Part shown: piece after piece, positions 3,109 to 22,607 of the stretch
How the letters are laid out: each line of letters begins with the position of its first letter
Position numbering within the stretch: position 1 is the stretch's first letter
Assembly: GCA_937128505.1 (NCBI GenBank)
Contig: CAKZMM010000146.1
Location: 1-38,943, forward strand
Reading direction: 5' to 3'
DNA from: an uncultured Thermogutta sp.
Lineage (GTDB): Bacteria; Planctomycetota; Planctomycetia; Pirellulales; Thermoguttaceae
Length of the DNA: 38,943 nt
Notes under the pieces: model-generated
The model's input: only the letters and a program-made list of their open reading frames with translations
Database searches by the model: none
Told to the model about the DNA's origin: nothing
Program-made: the position numbers and the translations under genes

Positions 3109-4107
3109 CTACTCAACTCGCATTTTCTTGATGGTGTCGGCTTCATAAAGCTTGGCGGAGAACTCCGACAGTAGGGCACGATCAGCCGGGGTGCAGTCGC
3201 CACCGCTTGAGATAATCTTGATGTTGGCGTCAATCTCCTCCTTCACTTTCATGCCGACGGCAAGAAGATGAACACGCTCGTCTTGCAGCACGTAGCGAAT
3301 GGCAGCGCCGGGTAGTTGCGCGAGGCGCTCCCTGTCGAATCCCGGCACGAGATAGCCCGACCACCGGCCCAGCCAGCCGCCGCCGAGGACTTTCATCGCC
3401 ACGATGCCCATGCCTAGTTCGTGTGCCTTGGCCAAACAGGCATCGCGCAGGGTGATCATCCGGGGGCTCCAGATTGAACTGCTGCCTCGCGGCATGTAGC
3501 CGTAAGACAACATGCACATGTCGAATCCGCCGGAGTTGATGAGAGCCAGCGCCTTGTCGAAATAACCGTGCGCGGAGAACCCGATGAATCGCGTAATCTT
3601 TTCATCGCGCAGCTTGACCAACTCAGCGTGAATTTTCATCGCTTGGCCAACGCTCATCTGTTCCAATCCCGGCGTGCCGTGAATCAGGAGGATGTCCAAG
3701 TAATCCGTCTGGAGTTCCTTCAGCGATTTCTCCGCTGCTTTGCGCACTTCTTCAGCCTTGGTGGTCTCGACCTTGGTCACGAGGCACACCTCGTGACGCC
3801 GGTCTTTGAGCGCCTCGCCTAGAATGCTCTGGCTCTCCATGTAATTGCCCGCCGTGTCGAAGTAAAGGATGCCCCGGTCGAAGGCGTGGCGAACCAATTT
3901 CACGCGCTCTTCATATGACAACGGACTGCGCCAAGCCTTCGGCAGTGCCGCGCCCCCGTAGCCGAGGATCGGTAGCTTCAGGCCAGTCTTGCCAAGAGTG
4001 CGAACGGGAATTGCCACGGAAGCTTCCGCCGGCGTCACGCGCTCGCAGACGCTCAACACACTGAAGACTTGCGCCGTCTTCTTCAGAAACTCGCGTCGTT
4101 TCAGCAT
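3109..4107 (-). CDS. Tat-exported aldo/keto reductase
   Basis: This 332-residue protein starts with a twin-arginine motif, KRREFLKKTAQVF, so it is likely exported folded with its cofactor. The aldo/keto reductase TIM barrel follows (VRTLGKTGLKLPILGYGG). The expected catalytic tetrad is present: Asp84 and Tyr89 in FDTAGNY, Lys112 in VTKVE, His143 in IHGTPG. No C-terminal cysteine cluster is seen, so it is not the ferredoxin-linked type. Its start overlaps the stop of the preceding propeller gene in ATGCTGA (4101-4107), which implies translational coupling. Genes of this kind in Planctomycetota often sit in sugar or polyol catabolic clusters; the substrate cannot be deduced. Confidence 0.92.
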   Translation of the reverse strand: MLKRREFLKKTAQVFSVLSVCERVTPAEASVAIPVRTLGKTGLKLPILGYGGAALPKAWRSPLSYEERVKLVRHAFDRGILYFDTAGNYMESQSILGEALKDRRHEVCLVTKVETTKAEEVRKAAEKSLKELQTDYLDILLIHGTPGLEQMSVGQAMKIHAELVKLRDEKITRFIGFSAHGYFDKALALINSGGFDMCMLSYGYMPRGSSSIWSPRMITLRDACLAKAHELGMGIVAMKVLGGGWLGRWSGYLVPGFDRERLAQLPGAAIRYVLQDERVHLLAVGMKVKEEIDANIKIISSGGDCTPADRALLSEFSAKLYEADTIKKMRVE

Positions 4108-5099
4108 GGCGCGGCTTCTCCGTGCGGGTAGCGGTAATCGGCTTTGAGGTTTGTGGAGACGCGCTGGGTTGAGCCGTCGCTCAATTGATACAAGTAAAGC
4201 TGCCCCTTTCCGGTTTGCGTGGAGTGAAAGATTACCGCCGAGTCGCCATCAATCCAGCGCGGATAGTCAAACCAGAATGGTTGACCGTCCTCGTTGGCGA
4301 ACGGCTTCGGGTTCGTGATCACCCGCTTCTGCGCGTCAAACTCGGCAATGTATAGCGTGCGTCCCACCATCGAGCGGCCTTTCGACCACGGCTGAAAAGT
4401 GAAACAGATCAATTTCTCGCTCGGCGAGACGCTCATCCGATCCAACGATCCCTTCTTCGCAAGCTCGCATTGAATCGGCTCATACGCGGGTTTCGCTCCT
4501 TCCTTGCGAACCAGCAGAAAATAACCCCGCCCCAGCGTGGGATGAGCAGCTGCGACCAAAAGCCGGCCATCGGTCAGCGCCGAGTGCACCCAAGTGGAGA
4601 AGCTCTCATCGGTGACAGCGGTCTCTTGTCCGGGCTGGTTGCCGATTTGGCTTTGCACCACGTAGTAACCGCCAGTCTTGTCGTTTTTCCGGTTCCACAC
4701 CGGCGTGTTGGTGCCGTCCCGCGTCCATGAAGGATTGAAGTCGGTGTGCGTGCCATCGCTCAAGAACTGAAGCCCGGTACCATCCACGTTGATGATGAAA
4801 ATCGCGGTCTTCCAGTTGGCCGTGACCCGGTTATCCTTGAGCCGGCGGAAACAGACGAGCATGTTGCCGGTCTTGGACCACGAGGGCTTGAAGTCCCAGT
4901 AGGGCTGACCCGGTGTCAGCGGTTTGCCTTCCGGTTTGCCGATTTCGTTCACGTGAATCTGGCCGTTGCAGAAATACGAAATCCGCGACTGAAACGAAGC
5001 CGCCGGCTCGCCGGCGCGGACGATGAGCGGCAGGCCAGCGAAAGCCACCGTCCTTTTCAAGAACTCGCGGCGGTTAATCTTTTCGTGCCGGGTGTGCAT
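4101..5099 (-). CDS. Tat-exported TolB/PD40-like beta-propeller protein
   Basis: The 332-residue protein starts with a twin-arginine signal (NRREFLKRTVAFAGLPLIV, residues 9-27). The mature part shows repeated blades of the TolB/WD40-like (PD40) kind: FKPSWSKTGNMLVCF, FNPSWTRDGTNTPVW, MSVSPSEKLICFTF, FDYPRWIDGDSAVIFHS and a final QLYLYQLSDG. It resembles the propeller of secreted oligosaccharide lyases, but I see no catalytic signature, so the function stays open. Its first 43 bases overlap the end of the ASPIC/UnbV frame, and its end overlaps the aldo/keto reductase start. The last residues (GEAAPC) look like an altered terminus. The first 30 codons are duplicated at 1634-1722. Confidence 0.85.
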   Translation of the reverse strand: MHTRHEKINRREFLKRTVAFAGLPLIVRAGEPAASFQSRISYFCNGQIHVNEIGKPEGKPLTPGQPYWDFKPSWSKTGNMLVCFRRLKDNRVTANWKTAIFIINVDGTGLQFLSDGTHTDFNPSWTRDGTNTPVWNRKNDKTGGYYVVQSQIGNQPGQETAVTDESFSTWVHSALTDGRLLVAAAHPTLGRGYFLLVRKEGAKPAYEPIQCELAKKGSLDRMSVSPSEKLICFTFQPWSKGRSMVGRTLYIAEFDAQKRVITNPKPFANEDGQPFWFDYPRWIDGDSAVIFHSTQTGKGQLYLYQLSDGSTQRVSTNLKADYRYPHGEAAPC

Positions 5100-6255: not shown

Positions 6256-6575
6256 GGCTTTCCCCCTTGGGGCTTGGTGCTCCCAGTTCGAGAATCCGTC
6301 GTTGGCGGCGCGAGGGGTACGCGGTTGTTAACCCCTAGGGGCCCGTGAACCAAAGAATCCGAGAGTTTTGGCGCGGGTTTTTGGGTTCCGAAAGCAACCA
6401 TGATGGTTGGCTTCGCGACCCAGAATCTCGGACTCGAACCGGAGAATTTCACGCGCCCGATCTGCTTGCCCCTACCCCTTTTTTTGACGAACGTTACGAA
6501 GAAGTTCCGGTCGCTCTCGCTTCCGGGGCTTTCCGTTAACCCAAGGGTCACGGAAATGCCGCGTTGTTGTTATAG
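6256..6575. other. Spacer with imperfect hairpin
   Basis: No gene is seen. It holds the palindrome CCCCTAGGGG at 6332-6341, the second 39-nt repeat, and an imperfect inverted repeat at 6383-6421 (left arm GGGT...GCAACC, right arm GGTTGGC...ACCC). Outer arms TCCGAGA and TCTCGGA flank that hairpin. It could be a processing or termination structure near the tRNA, but no T-run follows. Confidence 0.5.
6327..6365. repeat. 39-nt imperfect direct repeat, right of the zinc-ribbon gene
   Basis: Partner of 5708-5746, sharing GTTAACCC, GTGAAC, AGAAT and CGAGA blocks in the same order and spacing. Confidence 0.6.
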
Positions 6576-6648
6576 CTCCCCGGCCAGGGATCGAACCTGG
6601 GACCTAGCGGTTAACAGCCGCTCGCTCTACCTGCTGAGCTACCGGGGA
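6576..6648 (-). tRNA. tRNA-Asn (GTT)
   Basis: A complete 73-nt cloverleaf reads on the minus strand. The acceptor stem is TCCCCGG/CCGGGGA with discriminator G73, the D arm GCTC...GAGC, the anticodon stem AGCGG/CCGCT around the loop CTGTTAA (anticodon GTT), the variable loop AGGTC and the T arm CCAGG-TTCGATC-CCTGG. CCA is not encoded: the genomic 3' continuation is CTATA. It decodes AAC/AAU. Confidence 0.97.
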
Positions 6649-8317
6649 ATGGAACCTGAACAAGACCTCGCAGGCTTAAAACGTCCGATTGCCGATTGTA
6701 AGTTTTGGTCTACCGAACTCCTCTTGTTGAAATCACGGTGGCTCGCGGGCTTCCAACGTGAAATTACTTATTGGGAAATCGCAACCCGCCAAGATTTGCC
6801 CCAACCCATCTTAATTACTTCGGAGGCATTCAAATCAAGCCATCAATGCCGAATTTTCGCTTAGTTTGAACGCAACTTTACGCGCGGTATCAACGGCCAC
6901 CTATCTATCAATTATCTATGGCTAACGAGAACTTTATAGCTTTTCCCAAGCTTCCGGACAAGTAGCCCTCATCGCAACGTGTCCAAGGCCTTCGGGGCCG
7001 GGCTCGCTGGCCAAATCGGTCCCGACTGACGACGCAAAATTATAAGTTTCATGACCACATCGATCATAACGAAATTCATTACCATTCAATCATAAATAAA
7101 AAAATAAAAGCCGTCTCCAAAAATCACCAAACCATTTGATCGAGGGTTTTACGACCTAAAAAGGTTTCGTAACCATGGGCCAAGGAAAATCATTTTCGTC
7201 CCCCCGAAATGGCTGTATTCACGCAGAATACGCATAAAAAAGCCGGGATACTTAGGGAAATTCGCGCTTGCCAGTGTGATTCTACGCTTTCTGACTCAAT
7301 TGCACAAAAAGGGTCGGGACGAAGGGAGAAAGGGACGCAGGTTCGATCTTCAAAAGATGCTGGCACTTGAAAAGATGCTCGCAAATGCCGATCAAAAAAA
7401 TAACCTCGAATCAAATTTAAAGGTTCTAAAGCTTGAGGGATGAACTAGGCCATCATATTCCTCTTCCTTTATTCATTCACAGATATCGGAGAAGTATAAG
7501 TACTCGTCTATCGACATCCTGAACATCTGCTAATGGGCAAATTCTTTGATTTAGAGACACTAGCATTACGAAATTAGTGATTTATTTCTAAATTTGCTGT
7601 TTTTTAATTGATATAGCAACCTTTTCAGTTCGGCTTCGACGCCGCCGCTCGCTGACGCTCTTGCCGCCCGCAACTAAAAGCCTATATGGTAAACCTTCGA
7701 TGATCGAGGCTATAAACTTTTAGTTACATTGAAATTCATAATTCCTAATCTTACTGATTGTCTCGCTGATTTTTCTGAAGCGATCTGCAATTTTAGCTGA
7801 TACCCCGCGCTATGGACTATCGCTTGGATGCTCTTCACCCTTTTCGCCTCAACCCGTGTTTGTGACGGCGTGCAAAAGCAAGCCCGTCATCGTCCAGTAA
7901 GTTGCGATCCCTCCCAATTGCGGACTTTCCGAAAACAAACTTCCATCGGTAAATAATCTCGTTCGTTACGCAAGGCAATCCGGTAGTGACTTGCGGATGC
8001 GCCTCACCCCATCCTTCCTCTGCCACCAAAAGCTCCAGCCCACCCCGGCCCAAACGATCACAGGTAGCTCTCTTCCATAGTCGCCTTCATTCGACCCTTT
8101 TCGGGGGGCCACTCAGCGAGAATGCGCATCCCGCATCGCCACGCCTGTGCGCCAACCAGCTTAAAATTTTTTCTAATCCTTGTAATTCTTGTCCCTTATA
8201 AACGCGGAACAAAGCTCAAGATTCGCACGACCGCTACCGATAAAAGACCTGCCCTCGTCAGGTGGTTTCTTGTCCCGGGGGCTATTTCGAAAGCGAAGTC
8301 CGCGAGGGTGCAAGGAG
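6649..8317. other. Long AT-rich spacer without a supported gene
   Basis: About 1.7 kb separate the tRNA from the membrane protein gene. Short frames here lack family features and I do not call them. It holds an inverted repeat at 7672-7725, an 18-nt imperfect tandem pair at 7351-7386 (14 of 18 matching), and a GC-rich island at about 7628-7670 within AT-rich surroundings. The promoter of the 8.3-12.4 kb cluster must lie here or inside the alternative 5' extension of its first gene, but I cannot place it. Confidence 0.6.
7672..7725. repeat. Inverted repeat (9-bp perfect arms plus TATA pair)
   Basis: AACTAAAAG at 7672-7680 pairs perfectly with CTTTTAGTT at 7717-7725. After a 2-nt mismatch on each side, TATA pairs with TATA. 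The loop is about 24 nt. It could be a hairpin or an operator; no gene lies close by. Confidence 0.5.
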
Positions 8318-10132
8318 ATGGATACTCCCAGTCGTTCCGGTCGAGAACTTGCGGAAAAAGTCTGGTATGACATCACGGGGCACGCGCCACGGTCAACCGA
8401 GGGGGCCTCAAGCTCGGCTGGTCAAGATCGGCCATTGGAGCCGGCACAAGGGCAATCAAGGATTGGCCTTGAGACCCGGGTTGTCGCCCGGTTTCCCAAT
8501 CTAGATGAGACTTCGGACGTAACTCCTACGGATAAAGGGGATATCATCGCGCAGCCTTTCCCGCGATTTTCTCTTACTTTCACCGCTTTCGTATTTGCTG
8601 GAGGGTGTGCCCTGGCCCTATTGATCTGGGTGGGGCTTTTCTCCCGATCCGGCCCAATGCGATCGGAGCAAAGCTCCGCAGCAATATCCGGCCGGGCACC
8701 GGCGTCTTCCGGTACCTCGGTCGCGGATCAGCGTTCCGCCGTGCCGGACTGGGCCGAGCAAGCATGGTCCTCCCAAGGCCCGGAAAGAGATGATTTCGCG
8801 CCGGCTGACACCGGCAGTGCGTCCGTTGCAGCCGGCGGAGCTCAAGCCCAACAAATCGACTCCGCGGCCGACCAAACCCGGCTAGTCGGTTGGGATATGG
8901 GATCGCCGGCCTCAGGCGATGTGGAGGGGAAGGCGAGGGACGTGAAAACCCCGTCTCCACAGGGTCTTTTCGAGCCACCACCCAAGCAGGGAGGGTTTTC
9001 GGCGCATGGACCCAATGAATTTGCAAGGGTACCGGGGATTAACTCGTCGGTAAGCGATGCACAGAAAACCGGGGATTCGCCCGGTGATCACAACCTCCCC
9101 GTTGCAAACGCTTCCCAAACCACGATTGGGGCTTATCTCCCGCCATCCGCCGTAGGAGCTATCCATGGACCATTGCCAGAGATGGCGAATTTACCCTACC
9201 CCATAGCCGGGCGGGGTTATTTCGCTCCGCGAGGTGGACTCATGCCCGGGCAGGGCGTAACCTTTTCGCCGGAGGTTCCGGCGGCACCTTTCGCGGTAGC
9301 TACTCGGGCTACGGTTACCGGCGGGAGCGGCGCGCCGGCGGATTCAGGAATTCCCGGATTAGGCGCGCGTAATGCGCCGGCTCCGATGGGGAGTCTCCCG
9401 CTTCCCGCAGGGCCGGGATCCACCGCACTTTCGCCTCAACCAACTCCGGGGAATGCAACCGTTTGGCCCGGCACCGCGAATTCTTATCCCAGGGGCACCT
9501 CGTCTGAAACATCGGCCGGACTCCAGGTCGGGCCGCGATTCGCGGGCCAAATGCAGGGGTCTGTGCCGCAGACGAATGCAGATCTTTCGCCGAGTCAATC
9601 GGCCGGAACCGCCGCCGTATTGAACCCGTGGATGGTCGGGGTTTCAGGACGCGTATTCTCGCCGGCAAACGTAACCCCGGAGCAGGAATCTGCAACGCGA
9701 GCGACCCTGGGGCTTCCGACTAGCTTCTCGGCGGAGACGGCAGCGGCCGGGCAGCCGTTCGGTGCTCCGGGGGGAAGTGCTCGTTCTGAGCCTTTGGCAA
9801 GACAATCGCGGCCGACGGCAGGTGGGTATGGGAACGCTCCGCCCATTTCATCATCCCCTAATCTCCCCAGCCCGGGGAGCCTTTCGCCGCCAATTGCTGG
9901 TCTTTCCAGCGGCATGGTGGGAATCGGTACTTCGCAAGGATCCGTTGACCCAATTGCCGGCGGCTATCCAGCAGCTAGCACAGGTGGGGTTAATATTTAT
10001 CCGGTTGCGGGGCAGGGTGCCCTCCAAATGCCACCGCTCAATATGTCGCCGGGCTATCCCGGCTCCGCGGCAGGGACAATCAGCCCATCGCCGAGCGTTT
10101 GGCAAAACCCTGCACCGGTCTATCCCCGGTAG
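8318..10132 (+). CDS. Single-pass membrane protein with long Pro/Gly/Ala/Ser-rich extracytoplasmic domain
   Basis: From the ATG at 8318 the protein has 604 residues. The frame is open further up, to a TTG at 8189, so the start is uncertain; AAGGAG lies directly against this ATG. Residues 1-84 are soluble and charged, about 85-108 form one transmembrane helix (SLTFTAFVFAGGCALALLIW), and the remaining nearly 500 residues are low-complexity Pro, Gly, Ala and Ser with loose repeats such as PIAGRGY, PIAGGYP and PVAGQG. No catalytic domain is seen. The topology suggests an N-in anchor with an extended C-terminal region outside the membrane. It heads a plus-strand cluster, 132 bp before the CpsD-like gene, and may be a scaffold or wall-spanning part of that machine. 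Family not recognised. Confidence 0.75.
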   Translation: MDTPSRSGRELAEKVWYDITGHAPRSTEGASSSAGQDRPLEPAQGQSRIGLETRVVARFPNLDETSDVTPTDKGDIIAQPFPRFSLTFTAFVFAGGCALALLIWVGLFSRSGPMRSEQSSAAISGRAPASSGTSVADQRSAVPDWAEQAWSSQGPERDDFAPADTGSASVAAGGAQAQQIDSAADQTRLVGWDMGSPASGDVEGKARDVKTPSPQGLFEPPPKQGGFSAHGPNEFARVPGINSSVSDAQKTGDSPGDHNLPVANASQTTIGAYLPPSAVGAIHGPLPEMANLPYPIAGRGYFAPRGGLMPGQGVTFSPEVPAAPFAVATRATVTGGSGAPADSGIPGLGARNAPAPMGSLPLPAGPGSTALSPQPTPGNATVWPGTANSYPRGTSSETSAGLQVGPRFAGQMQGSVPQTNADLSPSQSAGTAAVLNPWMVGVSGRVFSPANVTPEQESATRATLGLPTSFSAETAAAGQPFGAPGGSARSEPLARQSRPTAGGYGNAPPISSSPNLPSPGSLSPPIAGLSSGMVGIGTSQGSVDPIAGGYPAASTGGVNIYPVAGQGALQMPPLNMSPGYPGSAAGTISPSPSVWQNPAPVYPR

Positions 10133-10264
10133 TTTTGCAACTCATCGGGCCTGAAAGTCTATGTCGCTTAGGTTGCTGCCTATTCCGAGGTAATTCGAAG
10201 GAATCAAATTCATGTCTTCGTAGGCGGTCGAAAACCACGCCTATCGCTTGGGAACGAATCGGCC

Positions 10265-11545
10265 ATGACATCTCTGGACCAAGCGTTTCTGAAAGCATAC
10301 TTGCGACGTCATGCCGCCGCTGCGCATAGCCCCGCCATCGTGGGCAAGGCCGTGCTGAGCTTGGGGGACGTGCAAATCGAAACGATCCAGCAAAATTCGG
10401 GGACGGGATGCTCGGACGCACGCGATTCAACAGAAGATGATCCCACTGGTCAATGCGGCGGTAGCTACAGGAAACACACACCGCCCACAAGCACCTTACC
10501 CGGCGGGCAAAAGATGCCGAATCACTTATTTGACGGCGCAAATAAGGAGTGCGAATCCGCAGACACCAAGGAGCCAAAGGGAGGTAGCCTGCCGGTTCTC
10601 TCAGTCAATCACGCGGAGCGAGCCTTCGTAGCGTCAACGTCCGTTACCGATGTGGGTGCGCAGGCAAGACCGCTTGCTGCACAGAATTCCGTAGTCGGTT
10701 CAGACCAGCCGAATCCGCCGGATATTTCTCGCGTTCAGAAGCTCGATAAAACCGAATCTGCCAAAACCGCCAAGAGTATCCCCGCCTGCCTTGCGAAACC
10801 GACGGCTGAATGCGAGTCGACGGCTGCCGATGCCAGCCGCGCGCTTGCCGAGTCGTGCACCGGGAGCTTTTTCAGTCCACAGTATATGGTGGATCGAGTG
10901 CACTGGCCCAGCGCAAGCATTCGATTGGCTTTGGCGGCCGGAACCGCAATCGACGGGATTGTGGACCCGCTTCTGGCCAAGTACCCAGGGCGTGGGATCG
11001 CTTTGGGTCTGAGCTCGCCCCATCCCCAGCGGGGATGCACGACGGTGGTTTTGAGCGTGGCCCGACGGCTCTTGCAACGTGGGCTGGAAGTGGCTGTGGT
11101 GGATGCCGATTTTGCGCACCCCATGCTGGCCCAACGATTGGGGCTTTTGCCCGAATTGGGTTGGGAGTCTGTCGTCGATCCCCCGAAACCGGTGGCAGAG
11201 GTAGCCATTCGGGTCAAAGATGAACCACTCACCGTCATTCCGTGGCTGGCTCATTCTGCCAAAAATCAGCCAGCATCTCCCCCACCTTTGCAGGTAGTCC
11301 TGAGCACGCTGGAGAAAAATCATGATTTTGTGCTAGTGGACCTCGGGATGCTCCTGCTAGAGCACATCGCTGAGTGGGCCGCTTTAGAAGTATTCCTCAA
11401 AGGTTTGAAAGGCATGCTGCTTGTCGTAAGCACGCGCGACTTATCGGATCCACGAATACAGGAATTGGCAGAGAAATTGAGCCGCTCCGGAATGGAGCCT
11501 ACGGGAATCATCGAGAACTTCGCACCCTTGAGGATGGCTGCCTAA
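10265..11545 (+). CDS. CpsD/BY-kinase-like (ParA/MinD-fold) ATPase with degenerate P-loop
   Basis: The 426-residue protein has a short N-terminal motif (MTSLDQAFLKAYLRR), then about 190 low-complexity residues, then a ParA/CpsD-type domain from about residue 215. The P-loop region reads LSSPHPQRGCTTVVLSVA (249-266). Bacterial tyrosine kinases have PGEGKST there, so the conserved Gly and the essential Lys are replaced by Gln and Cys. The Walker A' motif VVDADFAHPML (278-288) and a Walker B-like FVLVDLG (355-361) are kept. No C-terminal tyrosine cluster is present. In exopolysaccharide loci such proteins control chain length and export; here catalysis may be lost, leaving a regulatory or adaptor role. 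The ExeA-like gene begins 27 bp after its stop, so the two are likely cotranscribed. Confidence 0.85.
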   Translation: MTSLDQAFLKAYLRRHAAAAHSPAIVGKAVLSLGDVQIETIQQNSGTGCSDARDSTEDDPTGQCGGSYRKHTPPTSTLPGGQKMPNHLFDGANKECESADTKEPKGGSLPVLSVNHAERAFVASTSVTDVGAQARPLAAQNSVVGSDQPNPPDISRVQKLDKTESAKTAKSIPACLAKPTAECESTAADASRALAESCTGSFFSPQYMVDRVHWPSASIRLALAAGTAIDGIVDPLLAKYPGRGIALGLSSPHPQRGCTTVVLSVARRLLQRGLEVAVVDADFAHPMLAQRLGLLPELGWESVVDPPKPVAEVAIRVKDEPLTVIPWLAHSAKNQPASPPPLQVVLSTLEKNHDFVLVDLGMLLLEHIAEWAALEVFLKGLKGMLLVVSTRDLSDPRIQELAEKLSRSGMEPTGIIENFAPLRMAA

Positions 11546-11571
11546 AGGGCCTTGCCCGACGGAACGCGACC

Positions 11572-12411
11572 ATGTACGAACACCATTGGCGACTGAATCG
11601 AAAACCATTCGCAACCGGGGTTGATCCCGAGTTTTATTTTCCGGCACCCGAACATCAATCGGCTTTACTGAAGCTGCGTTACCTGGCGGAGCACCACCGG
11701 GGATTGGCCCTGGTGGCTGGACCCGGCGGATGCGGAAAGACGCTTGTGGTGGAAGTACTGGCTCGTTCCCTCGGGGAAAAGCTCAAGGTGCTGCACCTCG
11801 TTTTTCCCCCTACCACGGTCGAAGACCTGTTAGGCTATGTTGCCTTGCGGCTGGAACAAAGTCCTTCGGGGCAGGAGCCTCAAAGCCTTGCCGGGCTATT
11901 ACATCAGGTTGAGACCGCCCTCCACCGGGTCCATTCGGCCGGTCAACACGTTTTGATCGTGGCCGACGAGGCCCATCTGCTCGACGACCCGCGGATGCTC
12001 GAGGCCTTGCGGTTGCTAACGAACTACCAGGCCGGCGGTGAGCCCCAGGTCAGTGTGATCCTCGTGGGTCGCGAACCCCTTCTCAACCACATTCGCGAAA
12101 TGCCCAGTCTGGAAGAACGCCTTGCTGTTCGGTGCTTTCTGAATCCGCTAGACCGCACACAAAGCCAACAATATGTGCTATCGCGACTTAAGGCGGCAGG
12201 AGCGAGCGAGGAGATCTTTACGCCGGAAGCCCTTAGCAGGCTCTACGAATTATCGGGAGGGGTGCCCCGGCAGATCAATCAACTATGCGATTTAGCGATG
12301 TTGGTGGCTTTCGCGGACGATCAGAAAGTAATTCTCCCCGAACATGTAGAGTCAGTTTACGGCGAATTCGTGCCCCCGCGGATCTCGGCACCCGTGGGGT
12401 CAGCAGCTTAA
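11572..12411 (+). CDS. ExeA/GspA-like AAA ATPase (secretion-ATPase family)
   Basis: I place the start at the ATG at 11572, because MYEHHWRLNRKPFATGVDPEF matches the usual N-terminus of ExeA-like ATPases (a MYxxxF...KPF...DP pattern). The product is 279 residues, about the length of the AAA part of the family. Walker A is GPGGCGKT (50-57), Walker B VLIVADEAH (127-135), an arginine-finger region EERLAVR lies at 181-187, and the sensor-2-like GVPRQINQLCD at 230-240. ExeA has a C-terminal peptidoglycan-binding domain; it is absent here, as in the PEP-CTERM/exosortase-associated ATPases. It probably drives assembly or transport of an envelope component together with the two genes upstream. An in-frame upstream extension inside the previous gene is unlikely to be used. 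Confidence 0.93.
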   Translation: MYEHHWRLNRKPFATGVDPEFYFPAPEHQSALLKLRYLAEHHRGLALVAGPGGCGKTLVVEVLARSLGEKLKVLHLVFPPTTVEDLLGYVALRLEQSPSGQEPQSLAGLLHQVETALHRVHSAGQHVLIVADEAHLLDDPRMLEALRLLTNYQAGGEPQVSVILVGREPLLNHIREMPSLEERLAVRCFLNPLDRTQSQQYVLSRLKAAGASEEIFTPEALSRLYELSGGVPRQINQLCDLAMLVAFADDQKVILPEHVESVYGEFVPPRISAPVGSAA

Positions 12412-12807: not shown

Positions 12808-13131
12808 AGACGACTCAAGTATTACGAAAAAGTCGACTCCGAATCGAAAAAAACAAATCACCGAAGTCAACACCCCAAAAAGTCCGATTATCCGCCTGGG
12901 TTGCCGCGCGGATTGCTCCCGGTAACCGTTTTCGAGAAGTTCCTGCGGCAATTCCCCTCGCCGAAAATCTCTTAATGACCACACCGCAGCCCCCCGGATC
13001 GGGCGAAATCTTCCCCGCCGGTTTTTTCTCCCATTGCCCTAAATGTTTCTCGGGTATCATGCGCGACCTGTATGTACCTCACCCCTTAGCCGAAAACCGA
13101 TTGAACCGAATCCTGGTGCGGTCCCCCCACC

Positions 13132-13137
13132 AGGAGG
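13132..13137 (+). promoter_or_regulatory. Strong Shine-Dalgarno AGGAGG displaced by a duplication
   Basis: AGGAGG lies 14 nt before an ATG at 13152 that is followed by a stop after five codons (MIGLR). It lies 28 nt before the in-frame ATG at 13166. A 14-bp tandem duplication separates the two ATGs, so the good binding site now serves the decoy start best. Confidence 0.55.
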
Positions 13138-13150
13138 TAAACTTACTGGA

Positions 13151-13178
13151 GATGATAGGTTTAAGATGATAGGTTTAC
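13151..13178. repeat. 14-bp tandem duplication over the glycosyltransferase start
   Basis: GATGATAGGTTTAA at 13151-13164 is followed by GATGATAGGTTTAC at 13165-13178. Each copy contains an ATG; only the second is in frame with the gene. Confidence 0.85.
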
Positions 13179-15046
13179 ATAAGGTCGGAGGTACGAAGAA
13201 AGCCATTTCCCCCGTGATACCTCGGATTTCGTTGAAATGCAGCTCGATCGTCGCTCAAGTGCTCACTTCATCCTTCGTGGGGGGCATGGTTGCCCTCATC
13301 CTTTGGCAAACGTCCGCTGATTTACCCATGGTATGGGATGAAGGCAATGCAATCTGGCGGGCAGAGGGAATCGAAGCGTGGTGGTCGCGGCTTTGGGCGG
13401 CTTCTTCAAACGAAAGAGCCCAACTATTTGATCCTGCAATTATCGCACATTACTGGCGGTATACCACCCAATTGGAAGGACATCCTGCCTTCTACGGAAT
13501 GGTGATTGCCTTTGGCCGCCGATTGGCCCCGGATGATGTACCCCCTTGGCAGCAGGCTCGTTTGGGTCCCATTGTGCTTTTTGCCCTGGCCGCGGCCACC
13601 GTCCACTACCGATTGAGAAGGCTTTATAGCAGTCTAACCGCATGGGCGGCTATTGGGTGTGTGCTCTTGGTTCCCCGGCTTTTTGCTCATGTGCATTTTG
13701 CCTCGATCGACGGTCCTCTGGTCAGTTGCTGGCTTTTGACTTGGGCCACATTCCCTTATCACGCCCTGGAGCTTTCGGAAAGAAGCCACCCTGGTTCCAT
13801 CAGTGGGCAGGGCAAGGGATGGTTCCTACAGCTTCGGAGACGCAACTTAAACGCATTACGGCTATCCGCTTCAAAAGCCGCAGAAGTAGCCGTGGATCCT
13901 GAGAATGCGGATGCTCCCAGCCTTGGCACGACGCGAATCACCTCTTTCTTTAACTTTTTGGTTTTTGCATGCTGCCTCGGGCTTGCCCTCAGTTGCAAAT
14001 TCACTGGGTGGGTCTGTTTAGGAGTGTTCGGCTTATGGATGCTGTGGAGGAGGGGCTATCGGGGCCTTGTATGGTTTGGATTTTGCTGTGTTGTGTCTGT
14101 AGTGATATTCGTGCTACTTAACCCCCCGCTATGGCATGAGCCTTGGGCCGGCCTTGCGGAGTTTTGGCGGCGGAATCTCGACCGGCGTGATTACAACGTA
14201 AGCGTGCAATTCCTCGGCAAGCTTTATGATTTGTATCATCCTCTGCCGTGGTACAACACGCTAGTGTGGGTTCTAGCGGCCGTGCCTTTACCTATTGTAA
14301 CAATGGCCGGATTAGGGGCGTGGGATCTCTGGCGGAATCGCCGCATTCAACCGGCCAATGGGCTGTTGCTCTTGTGCGCAGTCTCGCTACTAGTTGTCCG
14401 GGCTACGCCTTGGGCACCACCGCACGATGGATTGCGGCTTTTCTTGCCGAGTATCGCCTTTGTAGGTTTATTGGCCGGCTGCGGAGTAAGCTGGGCTCTC
14501 AGGAAGATCCGACAATCGTACCAAAACGGATCACGCATAAAGGCCGCCACAATTGCAGGCGCGCTAGGCTTGGGGGCTTTGGGCTGTGTGCTTAATCTGT
14601 ATTGCTATGCACCTCATTGGCTTTCTTTTTACAGCGTACTCATCGGCGGACCCCGGGGCGCACGCACGCTGGGAATGGAGTCGACCTACTACTGGGATGG
14701 TCTCACTTCGCCGGTGCTCAACTGGCTTGAGGAGCACACGGCAGCAGACGAAAAGGTCGCCTTTTCCGGGCCGCCTGCAGAAAACCTCCATCTCATGAAA
14801 CGTTGGGGCCGTCTGGGATTTGAATTCCGACAAAACGCTCCGGGCGAAGTGCGGTGGTATGTGCTCCAGCATCGGCCTGGGGCGTGGCAGCCCGAGGATT
14901 GGTGGTTGGTCAACAACGCGCGGCCGGTTTTTGAGTCCCGTCTCGGCTCGCGGTGCCCTTGTTTGTCGTGGCTTCTCGATGTACCGCTAGTAAGTATCTA
15001 CGATAGCCGCGATTACCGCCGGGCATTGGAAGCAACTCGCCGCTGA
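13166..15046 (+). CDS. PMT/ArnT-like (GT39/GT83-type) integral membrane glycosyltransferase
   Basis: From the ATG at 13166 the protein has 626 residues; the frame is open upstream to 13043. A first membrane helix (about 25-45) is followed by DLPMVWDEGNAIWRAEG, whose Asp-Glu pair in the first outside loop matches the catalytic acidic motif of PMT/ArnT-type C-fold glycosyltransferases. HPAFYG then matches the EHPP-like motif. Many hydrophobic segments follow (ALAAATVHYRL, AAIGCVLLVPRLF, FLVFACCLGLALSC, CCVVSVVIFVLL, LCAVSLLVV, AGALGLGALGCVLNL), and the C-terminal part is extracytoplasmic. Such enzymes move a sugar from a polyprenyl phosphate onto a protein, lipid or glycan; donor and acceptor are unknown. 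A 14-bp duplication sits on the start. It may be functionally linked to the ATPase cluster upstream. Confidence 0.88.
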   Translation: MIGLHKVGGTKKAISPVIPRISLKCSSIVAQVLTSSFVGGMVALILWQTSADLPMVWDEGNAIWRAEGIEAWWSRLWAASSNERAQLFDPAIIAHYWRYTTQLEGHPAFYGMVIAFGRRLAPDDVPPWQQARLGPIVLFALAAATVHYRLRRLYSSLTAWAAIGCVLLVPRLFAHVHFASIDGPLVSCWLLTWATFPYHALELSERSHPGSISGQGKGWFLQLRRRNLNALRLSASKAAEVAVDPENADAPSLGTTRITSFFNFLVFACCLGLALSCKFTGWVCLGVFGLWMLWRRGYRGLVWFGFCCVVSVVIFVLLNPPLWHEPWAGLAEFWRRNLDRRDYNVSVQFLGKLYDLYHPLPWYNTLVWVLAAVPLPIVTMAGLGAWDLWRNRRIQPANGLLLLCAVSLLVVRATPWAPPHDGLRLFLPSIAFVGLLAGCGVSWALRKIRQSYQNGSRIKAATIAGALGLGALGCVLNLYCYAPHWLSFYSVLIGGPRGARTLGMESTYYWDGLTSPVLNWLEEHTAADEKVAFSGPPAENLHLMKRWGRLGFEFRQNAPGEVRWYVLQHRPGAWQPEDWWLVNNARPVFESRLGSRCPCLSWLLDVPLVSIYDSRDYRRALEATRR

Positions 15047-16029: not shown

Positions 16030-17136
16030 ATGAACGAAATTCGGGTACTGGTGGTCGACGACTCGGCGGTGCTTCGCCAAATCATTAGCGACTTCATCAA
16101 TCAAGAGCCGGGAATGAAGGTCGTGGGAAAGGCTCCCGACGGGCGGCGCGCCCTGGAGCTCGCCGCGGAGCTTCAGCCCGATGTGATAAGCCTGGATATT
16201 CAAATGCCGGTCATGGACGGGCTGAGCACCCTCGATGCTTTGTTGGAAAGACGCCCGGTGCCGGTGATCATGGTAAGCACGCTAACCCAGCGTGGAGCCG
16301 CCATATCTTTTGATGCCCTGGACCGCGGCGCGATCGATTACGTGGCCAAGCCCGAGCATGGCGTTCAGCAAGCCACGGAATTCCGCAGCGAGCTTATTCG
16401 CAAAATCCGGATGGCTGCGGGGATGAATGTACAGCGGATTATTGAAATTCGGCGTCGGCGGAAAACGCCGACGCCGGTCCCGCCGGTGGTGCAAAAGCCC
16501 CCCGAGAAACCGCCGCTCTCAGCACCTTCCAAACTCGGTAATGCCGTCCTCGCATTGGGGATTTCCACCGGAGGTCCCCCTGCTTTGGCCCGGCTCTTCG
16601 CCGACTTGCAGCCCCCCATGCCGCCGATCCTCGTTGTGCAGCACATGCCGCCGAATTTTACCCGGGCCCTGGGATGGCGGTTGAATTCGCTTTCTAAGCT
16701 GACGATCAAGGAGGCCGAAGCCGGAGATCCGCTCCGGCCCAATGAGGTCCTGATTGCTCCCGGTGGCTTACACATGCGCGTCGTACGCCGCGCCGGTATG
16801 GCGCAAGTTCTGCTTGAGGATAGCCCGCCGGTAAGCGGTCATAAGCCATCGGTTGATGTGATGATGATGAGTGCGGCGAAATGCTTCGGGGCCAATACGC
16901 TCGGGATCATTATGACGGGAATGGGCCGGGACGGAGCTGAAGGGTGCCGGGCCATCCGAGCAGCCGGGGGTTATGTCCTCGGGCAAGACGAGGCCAGTTC
17001 CGACGTCTACGGCATGAATAAAGTGGCCTTTGTCGAGGGAAATGTCGATCGCCAATTCCACCTAGACGAAGCAGCCACCCTCATCACCAATTATGTACAG
17101 GAGAAATGGCTCGCACCAACCTTAGCGCGGGTTTAG
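16030..17136 (+). CDS. cheB: CheB: chemotaxis response regulator, protein-glutamate methylesterase/glutamine deamidase
   Basis: The 368-residue protein has the standard CheB layout. The receiver domain (about 1-125) has the acidic pair Asp10-Asp11, phosphoacceptor Asp56 in SLDIQMP, Thr84 and Lys107. A Pro-rich linker (about 146-167) leads to the methylesterase domain with the triad Ser179 in LGISTGGPP, His205 in QHMPPNF and Asp301 in GMGRDGAEG. Phosphorylation should release the esterase, which demethylates or deamidates chemoreceptor glutamates. No cheR, cheA, cheW or receptor gene is nearby, so it is an orphan here. It may serve a chemosensory system encoded elsewhere, or one controlling something other than motility. 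Length is normal. Confidence 0.97.
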   Translation: MNEIRVLVVDDSAVLRQIISDFINQEPGMKVVGKAPDGRRALELAAELQPDVISLDIQMPVMDGLSTLDALLERRPVPVIMVSTLTQRGAAISFDALDRGAIDYVAKPEHGVQQATEFRSELIRKIRMAAGMNVQRIIEIRRRRKTPTPVPPVVQKPPEKPPLSAPSKLGNAVLALGISTGGPPALARLFADLQPPMPPILVVQHMPPNFTRALGWRLNSLSKLTIKEAEAGDPLRPNEVLIAPGGLHMRVVRRAGMAQVLLEDSPPVSGHKPSVDVMMMSAAKCFGANTLGIIMTGMGRDGAEGCRAIRAAGGYVLGQDEASSDVYGMNKVAFVEGNVDRQFHLDEAATLITNYVQEKWLAPTLARV

Positions 17137-19523: not shown

Positions 19524-21809
19524 TCACGGAGCGAGCTTTCGAAGTTTTTCCGCCACCTTCTCCGCCTGAGAATCATCTTTCTCATTTCGAAATCCTTCGA
19601 GGGCCCGACGCCATGCCTCGACGGCCTCCGCCGTCCGACCCACGGCGTGATACGCATCTCCCAGATGGTCAAGGATAACCGGGTCGGGTTCCTGCTCGGC
19701 AGCTTTTTCTAACTCTTTAACGGCCTCCTGATATCGGCCCAACCGATAAAGTACCCAACCAAGACTATCCCGGTACGCCGCGTTATCCGGCGCTGCGGTC
19801 ACCGCCTGTTGTATCATCCGATATGCCCGCTGGAGACGCATGTTCTTGTCGGCCCAAAGGTAACCCAAATCATTCAGCGCACCGGGATCCTCCGGGAACT
19901 CATCAAGCACTTGCTCAAGCCATTCGACGGCCTCATCGTCGTTTCCGGCAAGAGTCGCCAAATGCGACAAGGCTAAACGTGCTTCAAGAAGTACTTGCCG
20001 TATCTCCGCGGAGGAGAACTCAGAATCCCAGCGATCGATGATTTCCCGATAAATTCGATCCGCTTCCTCTCGCCGATCCGCTTTTACGAGAATAGCTGCC
20101 AAACGGCTTTTCATGCGGGGGTTTTCCGGGGCGATTTGTGCAGCTTGGCTGGCCGCAGCCACCGCTTCGTCAAGCCGGTCGCTTACCGCCAAAACGCCGG
20201 CCAAGTAATAATGCAAACCGGGATTGTCCGGCGGTTGAATCTGCTTGTTAATGCCAAGCTCCAGGACCTCAATAGCCTCCGCAAATCGCTCCTTTTCAAT
20301 CAGGGCAAAAGTCAGATCCAACAACACCTCCAAGGCATAACGAGATTTGCGATCAATCAAAAGTTCGAGGAACTTTCGGGCCTCGGCGAATCGCTCCGCC
20401 TCGATACACAACGACGCCAGTGCCGTATGTTGAGTCAAGAATTTCGCGTCGCTTTCGCTTGATTGAGCCGCGGCCGACACCAGCCGGTCACACCACTCGT
20501 CTCCGGCAAGTTGTTGGCGAAGATCATCACCCAGCGCCTCCCAAGGTAATCCCGCAGCCACCATCTGAGCGAGAGCATCCAGGACTGGCACCGGCTCACC
20601 TTTGGCCACAAGCACGCGTACCAAAAGACGCCAGAACTCTACCGAGGGCTTCCGCCCCAGCCATTCACGCAACAACTCTTCCGCAGCCTGTCGGTTGTCC
20701 TGAGCAAGATATTCCTCCGCCAGGATAAACGCCAAAGCCGGATCCTCAGCATTTTCCCCTTGCAGGGTTTTCAGCTTCGGAAGCAATTCATCTTGCCGAC
20801 CCAGAGTCGTTAAGATTTCCTTCAAGAGCTGATACGGGCCCAAACCCTCGCTGGTGAGCCGGGCTTTAAAGTAATCCTCCAAGTACTGGGCGGCTTGCTC
20901 TAAATTGCCCCGGACGAGGTAAACGCGGGCCAGATCGTAACCGAGAATCCCTGCATTTGGCTCCCGAGCGTTAGCTTGACGAAAACACTCCTCGGCTGCA
21001 TCCAGACGGTTGCTCCGCAGGAACGCGTGACCAAAGAGCCGCCAGCTTTGCGCCGGATTCCGGAGAAGCAGCTTCTCAGCACCCTCCTCCAAACCAAAAC
21101 GCTTGGGATTCTTGAGACCCTCCAGGGCGCGTTCGAATTGCCCGGCAGCTTTTTCGAATTCCTCCATGAGCAAATACAGTCGTCCCAGCTCCACCCGCAG
21201 GGCCAGATCGCCCAGTCCAACGGCCGACTCGCCTCGTTGTTTCAAAACAAGTTCCAGCAGCTCGGCTGCCTCCTTGGGCTGATTTTGCCGGACCAAATGC
21301 AGGGCAATTTGCATGAGTTGCAAGGGGTCCAACGCCTCCGGCGAAGAGACCACCTTCACCAACCGAGCCGCCTCATCCATTCGACGCAGCTTGATCGCCA
21401 AATTCATGGCGGCACGAGCGGCTTCAGCGGATTCCGGGTCGTAGCGGACTCCCCGTTGGTAGCGTCGAAGGGCTGCGTTGAGTTGCCCACGGTTTTCCAG
21501 CAGACGCGCAGCCGAAAAGTGCGCTAAAGCCTCCAAGCGGTCCCAATCTTCTTCTCTGCGTGATTGGTCCGCGGGCAAATTCTCCGGGGGGTCCTCGTCG
21601 ATTTGTCGCAAAAGTGTGCTTACGAGCCGAATGCCGGTTTTCCAGACTGGTTCTCCGTGCTGAAGCTGCCTGAATCCATAAGGCGATTGATGAGCCCACT
21701 CTGCCCTAAAAAGCACATCTTCTCTCGCCCCGGCGGATTCGGGAGTAAAGAGTTTCTGCGGCACCCTCGATGATTCCCGAGCAAAAGATGCCGAGGTTTT
21801 CGCCATCAT
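19524..21809 (-). CDS. Large tetratricopeptide-repeat (TPR) protein
   Basis: From the Met at 21809 the product has 761 residues and is almost all helical repeat. Clear TPR units include LNAALRRYQRGVRYDPESAE near the start, AECFRQANAREPNAG in the middle, and at the C-terminus YRDSLGWVLYRLGRYQEA and HLGDAYHAVGRTAEAVEAW. About 15 or more units are likely; it is a protein-interaction scaffold, and no catalytic domain is seen. The start is uncertain. The frame stays open 261 codons further, to a GTG at 22592 that lies 15 bp after the stop of the upstream gene. That extension contains two possible signal-peptide starts (Met at 22373 with FILCLLIHLLIPLG, and Met at 22190), but its composition is less protein-like. 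If one is used, the protein is exported. Confidence 0.85.
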   Translation of the reverse strand: MMAKTSASFARESSRVPQKLFTPESAGAREDVLFRAEWAHQSPYGFRQLQHGEPVWKTGIRLVSTLLRQIDEDPPENLPADQSRREEDWDRLEALAHFSAARLLENRGQLNAALRRYQRGVRYDPESAEAARAAMNLAIKLRRMDEAARLVKVVSSPEALDPLQLMQIALHLVRQNQPKEAAELLELVLKQRGESAVGLGDLALRVELGRLYLLMEEFEKAAGQFERALEGLKNPKRFGLEEGAEKLLLRNPAQSWRLFGHAFLRSNRLDAAEECFRQANAREPNAGILGYDLARVYLVRGNLEQAAQYLEDYFKARLTSEGLGPYQLLKEILTTLGRQDELLPKLKTLQGENAEDPALAFILAEEYLAQDNRQAAEELLREWLGRKPSVEFWRLLVRVLVAKGEPVPVLDALAQMVAAGLPWEALGDDLRQQLAGDEWCDRLVSAAAQSSESDAKFLTQHTALASLCIEAERFAEARKFLELLIDRKSRYALEVLLDLTFALIEKERFAEAIEVLELGINKQIQPPDNPGLHYYLAGVLAVSDRLDEAVAAASQAAQIAPENPRMKSRLAAILVKADRREEADRIYREIIDRWDSEFSSAEIRQVLLEARLALSHLATLAGNDDEAVEWLEQVLDEFPEDPGALNDLGYLWADKNMRLQRAYRMIQQAVTAAPDNAAYRDSLGWVLYRLGRYQEAVKELEKAAEQEPDPVILDHLGDAYHAVGRTAEAVEAWRRALEGFRNEKDDSQAEKVAEKLRKLAP

Positions 21810-22607
21810 TGAAAACGATTGCCGGCAGCTTTGCCGTGGTGAACAAATATTCAGATTAGTAATTTTACAAAAGCGCTGCTTTTCCGCGGGAATGGCCGAT
21901 CGGAAATCAAGTCCTTCTGCTGACGCGAAAGCAGATCTATAAACCATCGAAAAGCCGAATTTGTTGGCCAAAGAACTCGCAAATCTGTTTAACGATGTGG
22001 GAATCGTTTTACCTACGGATGGTGCATCCAAGTGCTCCGGTAGACAAAAACCGAAAATGGCTTCTGATAAAGAGGCGGAGCCAACGGGCGACAAAACGGC
22101 AAATGTAGCGGTTAATGAAAAACCCCATCCTCTGAGCGAGGAAAAACCGGAGTCCAAAGAACACAGTGGCCAGACGCGGAGTACGTTCATGCAGCATGGA
22201 TCTAATAGCCTTTGAATCGGCAAGCTATCGGCTCGTTCGAATCGACACAAGCTATCAGCTCGTTCGAATCGACAATAGTCGCCGTTAAAACTCGGATTCG
22301 AATAGGGAGGAATTGAGCCTGTGCTGCCAAGCGGTATCAATAAATGTATCAACAAACAAAGAATAAATCTCATCGTTATTGGCCCCGTGTTTAGCTCTTC
22401 CAGGAAACTGAATAACGATTCTCCACGCCCACGAAGTCCGCTTAAGAGTTCAGACCATCGCCTGGAAAATATCAACCCAGTCACGGCCCCAGCGGAATAC
22501 GAAGGGAACTCCCCATCAATTCTTGACACGAGGGTGCACTTAAGGAAGTCGCGGTGTACTCCAGCATCGAGAAAGAACGGGGCATAGAACACGCATTTGC
22601 TGCGGAT
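21810..22607 (-). other. Spacer or 5' extension of the TPR gene
   Basis: The minus-strand frame of the TPR protein remains open through this 0.8 kb, which is unlikely by chance, yet the sequence looks spacer-like. It contains a 27-bp in-frame tandem duplication (22221-22274) that would encode CRFERADSL twice, and a diverged 12-bp pair at 22334-22357. A plus-strand frame at 21961-22215 is hydrophilic but has no family match. I cannot decide between coding and non-coding. Confidence 0.4.
22221..22274. repeat. 27-bp tandem duplication
   Basis: Copies at 22221-22247 and 22248-22274 match at 26 of 27 positions; the unit begins CAAGCTATC and ends CGAATCGACA. The length is a multiple of three and keeps the minus-strand TPR frame open. 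Confidence 0.92.

Follow-up and report, generated by a model that had tools for sequence, protein, structure and literature searches.

A predicted single-pass membrane protein, a BY-kinase-fold pseudokinase and an ExeA-like ATPase encoded as a conserved gene set in Planctomycetia

Do a low-complexity membrane protein, a CpsD-like protein and an ExeA-like AAA+ ATPase encoded side by side in an uncultured Thermogutta species build one machine of the cell envelope, and what would that machine handle? The genes lie on the + strand of a stretch of 38,943 nucleotides (contig CAKZMM010000146.1, here C146), called the window below, in a genome of 5.58 Mb. They are named MEM (membrane protein; 8318..10132, 604 amino acids (aa)), PAR (CpsD-like protein; 10265..11545, 426 aa) and EXE (ExeA-like ATPase; 11572..12411, 279 aa). 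An earlier sequence-only reading had proposed the cluster from the letters of the DNA. Its three open reading frames (ORFs) on one strand were confirmed, and of the gaps it gave, 132 and 27 bp, the first was right and the second, between PAR and EXE, was 26 bp. The start of MEM was placed at ATG 8318; the longest ORF begins at TTG 8189 and has 647 aa. The answer favoured here, tentatively and with slightly less than an even chance of being right, is a three-part inner-membrane module for the assembly or export of an envelope polysaccharide, which would work without tyrosine phosphorylation and in which MEM would take the place of Wzz.

The identity of PAR was evaluated with sequence profiles and an AlphaFold model. 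The likeness of the single sequence to CpsD was weak (TIGR01007, 20.9 bits; cut-off 108), and its first ~200 aa were not conserved. A profile of 41 sequences (alignment A1) matched VpsO, CapB and BceF best in the PDB, then MinD, CapB and Wzc/Etk. The model had a mean predicted local distance difference test score (pLDDT) of 90.3 and a predicted template modelling score (pTM) of 0.89. It superposed on Wzc K540M with a Z score of 22.1 and a root-mean-square deviation of 2.7 over 202 residues, and the Z values for Wzc, Etk, CapAB, VpsO and MinD were 22.0, 22.0, 21.4, 21.3 and 16.4, respectively. The top 19 structure entries, BceF included, were all bacterial tyrosine (BY) kinases (Z 19.5–22.1). 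The model and these fold matches placed a BY-kinase-like domain at 10871..11530 (+). The CpsD-like, ParA-fold assignment of the sequence-only reading therefore holds by profile and by fold, and it is corrected to a pseudokinase because the Walker A lysine is missing.

The Walker A sequence in the window is QRGCTT (11027..11044, +) versus G-x-G-K-[ST]-[ST] in the kinases, with a Cys codon (11036-11038) at the position of the BY-kinase lysine. None of the 115 distinct PAR domains (140 loci) had this lysine, versus 32 of 32 rows of a kinase control that did; proteins of at least 700 aa and loci with a best PAR match of 60 bits or less were excluded from the count. The residues at the lysine position of the 115 domains were R (46), C (31), A (18), T (8), V (7), S (3), G (1) and I (1). 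The control consisted of the best TIGR01007 match in 30 related genomes plus two loci of the window's genome. A first P-loop search by regular expression had found the lysine in 25 of 30 kinases, with no match in five, and alignment to a profile gave the figure of 32/32. The acidic motifs were retained. Walker A' (VDAD; 11099..11110, +) carried Asp in 108 of 118 rows and Glu in nine, and the Walker B Asp (VLVDL; 11333..11347, +) occurred in 117 of 118 rows, with one gap, and was invariant in alignment A1. The last 25 residues of PAR contained no Tyr in 100 of the 115 domains, one in 14 and two in one; in the control kinases, the stretch of 60 aa that follows the domain held 0–12 Tyr, with two or fewer in 12 of 32 rows. 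PAR was thus classed as a stand-alone pseudokinase of the CpsD/BY-kinase fold because the Walker A lysine was missing and a Tyr tail was mostly lacking. It shares its fold, Walker A' and Walker B with the Wzc and CapAB tyrosine kinases and differs from them in the Walker A lysine and, in most members, the Tyr tail.

In an unrooted tree built quickly from 32 kinase rows and 65 PAR domains (out of the 115 distinct ones; 97 rows in all), one branch divided PAR from the kinases; its SH-aLRT support was 99 in the group table, and the label in the re-rooted tree print was 90. A single origin of PAR is likely according to this tree. A search with PAR of plasmid records gave no match at E≤1e-3. The same data bear on a different role for PAR, that of an active MinD/ParA-type nucleotide switch, which would govern where in the cell the complex is placed and in which another residue would have taken over the role of the lysine. 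The retained acidic residues of Walker A' and Walker B, the loop Gly and Ser/Thr, and the Arg found for Lys in 46 of 115 domains are in keeping with such a switch, whereas the range of substitutes (R, C, A, T, V, S, G, I) fits no single chemistry and MinD-like structures ranked below the BY-kinases (Z 16.4 versus 22.1). A switch of this kind is accordingly regarded as improbable. The closest parallels for PAR are EcpK of Myxococcus and HfsB of Caulobacter, for which passages of PMC12004946 propose that BY pseudokinases serve as scaffolds for polysaccharide co-polymerases, with EcpK/EpsV and HfsB/HfsA pairing through a cytoplasmic extension of the membrane partner. As far as those passages describe EcpK and HfsB, PAR is like them a stand-alone BY-kinase fold lacking the catalytic residue and the Tyr tail. 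EpsV is described there as a class 2 polysaccharide co-polymerase (PCP-2) of a Wzx/Wzy pathway, with two transmembrane helices and a helix-rich periplasmic domain (PMC12004946). The neighbour of PAR, in contrast, is not a PCP-2, since MEM is single-pass by hydropathy, of low complexity and without a Pfam match; a partner encoded elsewhere is possible. Moreover, an ExeA-like ATPase is the third member here, and no exopolysaccharide (EPS) cluster surrounds the genes.

The conservation of the three genes was explored in related genomes. PAR matched 87 of 99 relatives at E≤1e-3, some only through tyrosine kinases of ~790 aa, and 40 PAR-selected loci of 8.6–20 kb each were taken from them. An EXE homologue followed PAR on the same strand in 40/40 of these loci, which bears out the co-occurrence that the sequence-only reading had suggested looking for, and the gene preceding PAR often had a single hydrophobic segment and was rich in P, A, S and G. 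A set of 121 loci was then formed by these 40, 80 EXE-selected loci (many from the same genomes; the record titles name planctomycetes, one just "bacterium") and the window. PAR was present in 117 of the 121, adjacent to EXE by rule in 114 and overlapping it through over-long ORF starts in three. In a sample of 148 genomes of the class, 24 of the 37 from the window's order had a PAR match at E≤1e-34; outside that order, such matches occurred in 29 of 32 of family f21, 2 of 2 of family f24 and 0 of 77 others, in which the best value (1e-32) came from a kinase-sized protein; the threshold misses diverged PAR in the window's order (E 1e-24 to 1e-27; L196, L197, L220-L225). At the same threshold, PAR was found in 0 of 181 genomes of other classes, where diverged copies would likewise be missed (e.g., G091). 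The gene set is hence conserved across much of the class at the level of sequence.

Different gene states were found among the families of the class outside the window's order. PAR adjoined EXE in 13/13 PAR-selected loci of f21, with MEM candidates in 12; eleven of these were of 155–215 aa and the twelfth (L192) was doubtful. A protein of one cluster was encoded upstream of MEM on the same strand in 12 of the 13 f21 loci (e.g., L187 4536-6131), and the member searched had no Pfam match. EXE occurred without PAR in 14/14 loci of f22, preceded by a MEM candidate in 13. PAR without an EXE match beside it was seen in f24 (L193, L194), both genomes of which carry an ExeA-like gene elsewhere, and in L198, L280 and L282 of the window's order; L193, L194 and L198 held a MEM candidate and PAR with no adjoining EXE. 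MEM was therefore the constant partner wherever it could be recognised, because f22 has MEM and EXE without PAR and three loci have MEM and PAR without EXE. According to these gene states, MEM looks like the hub of the module.

MEM is a low-complexity protein (P 12, A 13, G 13 and S 12% in the 647-aa ORF) with one hydropathy peak, as the sequence-only reading had described it. The peak, obtained by Kyte-Doolittle hydropathy only, gave a predicted transmembrane segment at 8567..8632 (+). No Pfam or NCBIfam family matched the window's MEM; its first 110–122 residues aligned with the genes in the same position of two genomes of the same genus (E 3.5e-9 and 6.5e-9). The comparison of MEM sequences was confined to candidates longer than 90 aa that had a hydropathy peak and less than 15% Arg, and copies sharing their last 60 residues were counted once. 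The flank N-terminal of the membrane segment was the more positive one in 66 of 95 PAR-linked MEM (the reverse in 20) and in 16 of 17 PAR-less MEM, and an N-in orientation was predicted. The predicted periplasmic part varied from 65 to 522 aa, so the length of the low-complexity region is not conserved.

Two short motifs recurred among the MEM proteins. The first, on the cytoplasmic side, is VVARFPNL in the window (8480..8503, +), a candidate docking peptide for PAR, and roughly V-L-A-R-x-P-D-L elsewhere. The pattern [VILTAP][VILMA]xx[VILMFA]Px[VILMFC] before the membrane segment was found in 70 of 95 distinct MEM with PAR, a count fitted to the data in that the pattern was widened after the sequences had been viewed, and in shuffled sequences the mean was 13.2 and the maximum 24 (400 rounds). 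Some of the 70 matches resemble chance hits (e.g., L033). A strict pattern within 75 aa was found in 38 of 95, with 3.0 expected. PAR-less MEM had the motif in 0 of 17, where only 0.5 would be expected since the segment is short. The motif was thus associated with the presence of PAR among these sequences, and docking of PAR on it is a prediction. The second motif, C-terminal [LFIW]xGx[ILV], was found in 17/17 MEM of the MEM-EXE state, 45/92 of MEM-PAR-EXE and 0/3 of MEM-PAR, versus shuffled means of 1.7, 5.7 and 0.3, respectively. A first version of the pattern, which the form WLTGTI escaped, had given 17/95 and 2/17. The location of this motif is periplasmic by prediction, and it would face another partner. 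These results bear on whether the three genes are mere syntenic leftovers with separate roles, their order preserved by vertical descent. Other neighbours are common as well, for example methionine synthase in 16 of 52 loci of the window's order, but the adjacency holds in a lineage outside that order, gene loss leaves MEM with either partner, and the N-terminal motif tracks PAR. This explanation is very unlikely.

EXE is an AAA+ ATPase whose active-site motifs are intact. GKT is retained, the Walker A Lys56 (11737..11739, +) was invariant in 41/41 sequences, and D132 of the Walker B motif DEAH (11965..11976, +) was found in at least 90% of the 41. Pfam AAA_22 scored 62 bits, and the best NCBIfam model was TIGR03015 (pepcterm_ATPase) with 158.2 bits, below its cut-off of 324.5, which five scanned EXE homologues did not reach either; the ExeA-like label given earlier agrees with both scores. 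The model of EXE (pLDDT 91.8) had ORC/Cdc6, RuvBL and TnsC as its nearest folds, and midasin was the sole solved structure that a sequence search retrieved at E≤1e-8. No peptidoglycan-binding Pfam match was found, and the protein ends at 279 aa. A place in the transposition AAA family (TniB/TnsC), named by the sequence-only reading as a competing outcome, was rejected because TniB scored 17.2 bits, under its cut-off of 22.4, and no transposase was recognised nearby; the presence of TnsC among the best fold matches is a caveat to this rejection. A second ExeA-like protein, of 767 aa, is encoded in the same genome on contig C26 (L279 8171-10474, minus strand), and its sole NCBIfam match covers residues 24–292.

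The ATPase and the membrane protein can also be compared with GspA and GspB (ExeA and ExeB), an AAA+ ATPase and a periplasmic protein with a single transmembrane segment that are assembly factors of type II secretion according to passages of PMC9239104 and PMC4098917. If the module were an assembly factor of this kind for an outer-membrane pore, in protein secretion or pili, EXE would correspond to a GspA without its periplasmic part, MEM to GspB, and PAR would be an accessory. The architecture is shared, that is, an AAA+ ATPase and a single-TM MEM of variable length (by hydropathy only, and with PAR between them in the window). Furthermore, MEM and EXE persist alone in f22, and the strand-like C-terminal motif (17/17) would be periplasmic. 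EXE differs from GspA in having no peptidoglycan-binding part, though passages of PMC9239104 describe GspA proteins that lack a periplasmic region and pair with a long GspB, as well as a small GspB of E. coli that has no HR domain. No HR/T2SSB match was found in ten MEM (Pfam, E≤1; a distant HR could be missed), and no secretin among the searched ORFs of the window, no genome-wide secretin search having been made. Moreover, the best curated model for EXE is the XrtA/PEP-CTERM ATPase, the module includes a pseudokinase whose fold is of the polysaccharide type, PMT-like glycosyltransferases stand downstream, and the longer ExeA-like protein on C26 is present in the genome. The GspA-GspB-like reading is therefore judged unlikely, and the polysaccharide module stays the favoured one.

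The XrtA/XrtD exosortase-linked EPS loci of Alphaproteobacteria group an ExeA-like ATPase, a CpsD-type protein and a membrane protein, as the window does, and TIGR03015 is the best NCBIfam model for EXE; the cut-offs of TIGR03015 and TIGR03018 were not reached by the window's proteins. A search of plasmids with EXE gave 83 records, of which ten were listed and four inspected (H1, H2, H8 and H10). Each of the four had a Wzz-type or lipopolysaccharide (LPS)-biosynthesis gene near the ATPase, and three had an exosortase gene. The Rhodobacter and Thioclava plasmids (Rhodobacterales) had the order ATPase, Wzz-like gene, CpsD, with xrtD near; the middle gene is annotated as Wzz-like in Rhodobacter and as an LPS biosynthesis protein in Thioclava. 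The pairing of CpsD-like and ExeA-like proteins in exosortase loci, which the sequence-only reading had brought up, was thus found in two plasmids. The Sphingomonas ATPase belongs to an XrtA locus, where a chain-length determinant and an AAA protein taken for the CpsD type come before it; that of Tateyamaria is followed by Wzz and a flippase, with no annotated CpsD. MEM therefore sits where Wzz sits, because the Rhodobacterales operons read ATPase, Wzz-like, CpsD. The idea that the long Pro/Gly-rich protein may replace Wzz is supported in this respect of position; the length of its low-complexity part is not conserved. Unlike these loci, the window has MEM in place of Wzz and no exosortase among its searched ORFs, and the two plasmid CpsD proteins with a readable loop had GKS and a Tyr-rich end, whereas PAR lacks the lysine.

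The 21 ORFs of the window that were searched (Pfam and/or NCBIfam), the others being mostly overlapping ones, yielded no Wzz, Wza, exosortase or polymerase, in agreement with the sequence-only reading. EPS-type genes occur elsewhere in the genome: contig C52 encodes an exosortase together with a Wzc-type kinase, a second such kinase lies on C18, and the lysine is present in both kinases. The module would therefore be additional to a canonical-looking system, because the genome has its own exosortase and lysine-bearing Wzc-type kinases. A GT87/PMT_2-like membrane glycosyltransferase (13043..15046, +), with sub-cut-off Pfam scores (GT87 23.4 bits, PMT_2 22.4 bits), is a possible fourth gene. Of 52 loci of the window's order, 12 (the window among them) had a PMT_2/GT87-like glycosyltransferase gene downstream of EXE and in the same orientation, seven from the cluster of the window's gene and five from a second cluster; one member of each cluster was scored (the window's and that of L197), both just under the Pfam cut-offs. 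The second, PMT_2-like cluster occupied this place in L050, L196, L197, L199 and L225. Ten of the 12 genes were within 300 bp of EXE, and the window's is at 631 bp. CheB or response regulators were encoded anywhere in the stretch in 14 of 52 loci. The window has a CheB-type response regulator-methylesterase at 16030-17136, and in 10 of 52 loci, the window included, a member of the CheB cluster (some are only response regulators) was encoded at most 5 kb downstream of EXE, in one case on the opposite strand.

Loci with EXE relatives from other classes of the phylum were also inspected. In one of 18 (L270), whose EXE match has one internal stop, the genes after EXE encode an HD-GYP-like response regulator, then Poly_export/SLBB and Wzc-like proteins. 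In L257, EXE was flanked by Glycos_transf_4 and an HD-GYP-like protein, and some of the 18 had ribosomal-protein-like neighbours (by eye), only some of their ORFs having been searched. An EXE relative was followed by a protein of ~425–475 aa in L257, L258, L259, L262 and L270; the three that were searched (L257, L258 and L270) had an HD-GYP-like domain (HD_5), which hints at control by cyclic di-GMP.

Several observations weigh against the module as a Wzz-like polysaccharide machine. No polymerase, flippase, Wza or exosortase was found as a recurring neighbour in Planctomycetia, with eight cluster members searched in Pfam. The neighbours were clustered from the ORFs of 161 loci and counted on 81; many clusters were antisense, and unrecognised EPS genes are possible. 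Methionine synthase and a protein kinase (13/52), which are among the shared neighbours, are uninformative on polysaccharide. A MEM candidate precedes PAR in only 91 of 117 PAR loci, and neither Wzz nor any other domain was matched in ten MEM (Pfam, E≤1). The N-terminal motif is missing from 25 of 95 PAR-linked MEM. The wider C-terminal pattern, like the N-terminal one, was set post hoc and tuned on the sequences, and the motif is lacking in the window's MEM and in 47 of 92 others of the MEM-PAR-EXE class. Most of the PAR-less MEM belong to a single lineage, so the N-terminal motif and PAR were possibly lost together once, and the Fisher value of 4.7e-9 ignores kinship. The kinase control, furthermore, was chosen by best TIGR01007 score and so leans to canonical kinases, and its 32 rows represent 31 distinct genes.

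Four features of the window touch the module less directly. Upstream of MEM, ~1.8 kb (6400-8189) held no convincing gene except a tRNA-Asn (6575-6648, minus strand). A tetratricopeptide repeat protein of 1022 aa (19524-22592, minus strand) had PrsT of the XrtA/PEP-CTERM system as its best NCBIfam model (125 bits; cut-off 312). Two long ORFs, at 22608-24101 and 4101-5099 (minus strand), had no Pfam family above cut-off, and the former had a weak NCBIfam match to a monofunctional DNA glycosylase (23.7 bits; cut-off 400). Predicted promoters and terminators were not above the level in shuffled sequence.

Taking the polysaccharide module as the favoured reading, we infer a topology, a docking contact, a scaffold role, a polysaccharide cargo and an EXE-driven step. 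MEM would span the inner membrane once, with its N-terminus on the cytoplasmic side and a flexible Pro/Gly/Ser/Ala-rich region extending into the periplasm. The short cytoplasmic motif may dock PAR, which keeps the Wzc/CapB kinase fold and would act as a scaffold by analogy with EcpK and HfsB, because it has lost the Tyr tail as well as the Walker A lysine. EXE may power the building or resetting of the assembly, a role like the one proposed for GspA in relation to GspB. A broader possibility, rather doubtful at present, is an envelope machine of class-wide occurrence in planctomycetes with a new architecture: a single-pass hub, an inner docking peptide for a non-catalytic scaffold, an outer strand motif that would serve a periplasmic or outer-membrane partner, and a separate AAA+ motor. 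The open-access literature search found no description of a MEM-PAR-EXE module by title or abstract opening, and the combination of a pseudokinase and an AAA+ ATPase with a single-pass hub replacing Wzz seems new.

The scaffold proposal for BY pseudokinases has so far come from a few cases, as presented in passages of PMC12004946. PAR is a large family that forms one tree group, with the lysine missing in every distinct domain that was read. The gene-loss states of this family separate the partners, so that the scaffold idea becomes testable. If the class-wide machine were true, it would merge the logic of Wzz and BY-kinases with that of GspA and GspB and would build a surface polymer or structure specific to Planctomycetia. 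Holdfast and envelope biogenesis in planctomycetes are poorly known, and the module gives these bacteria a concrete candidate for an envelope machine.

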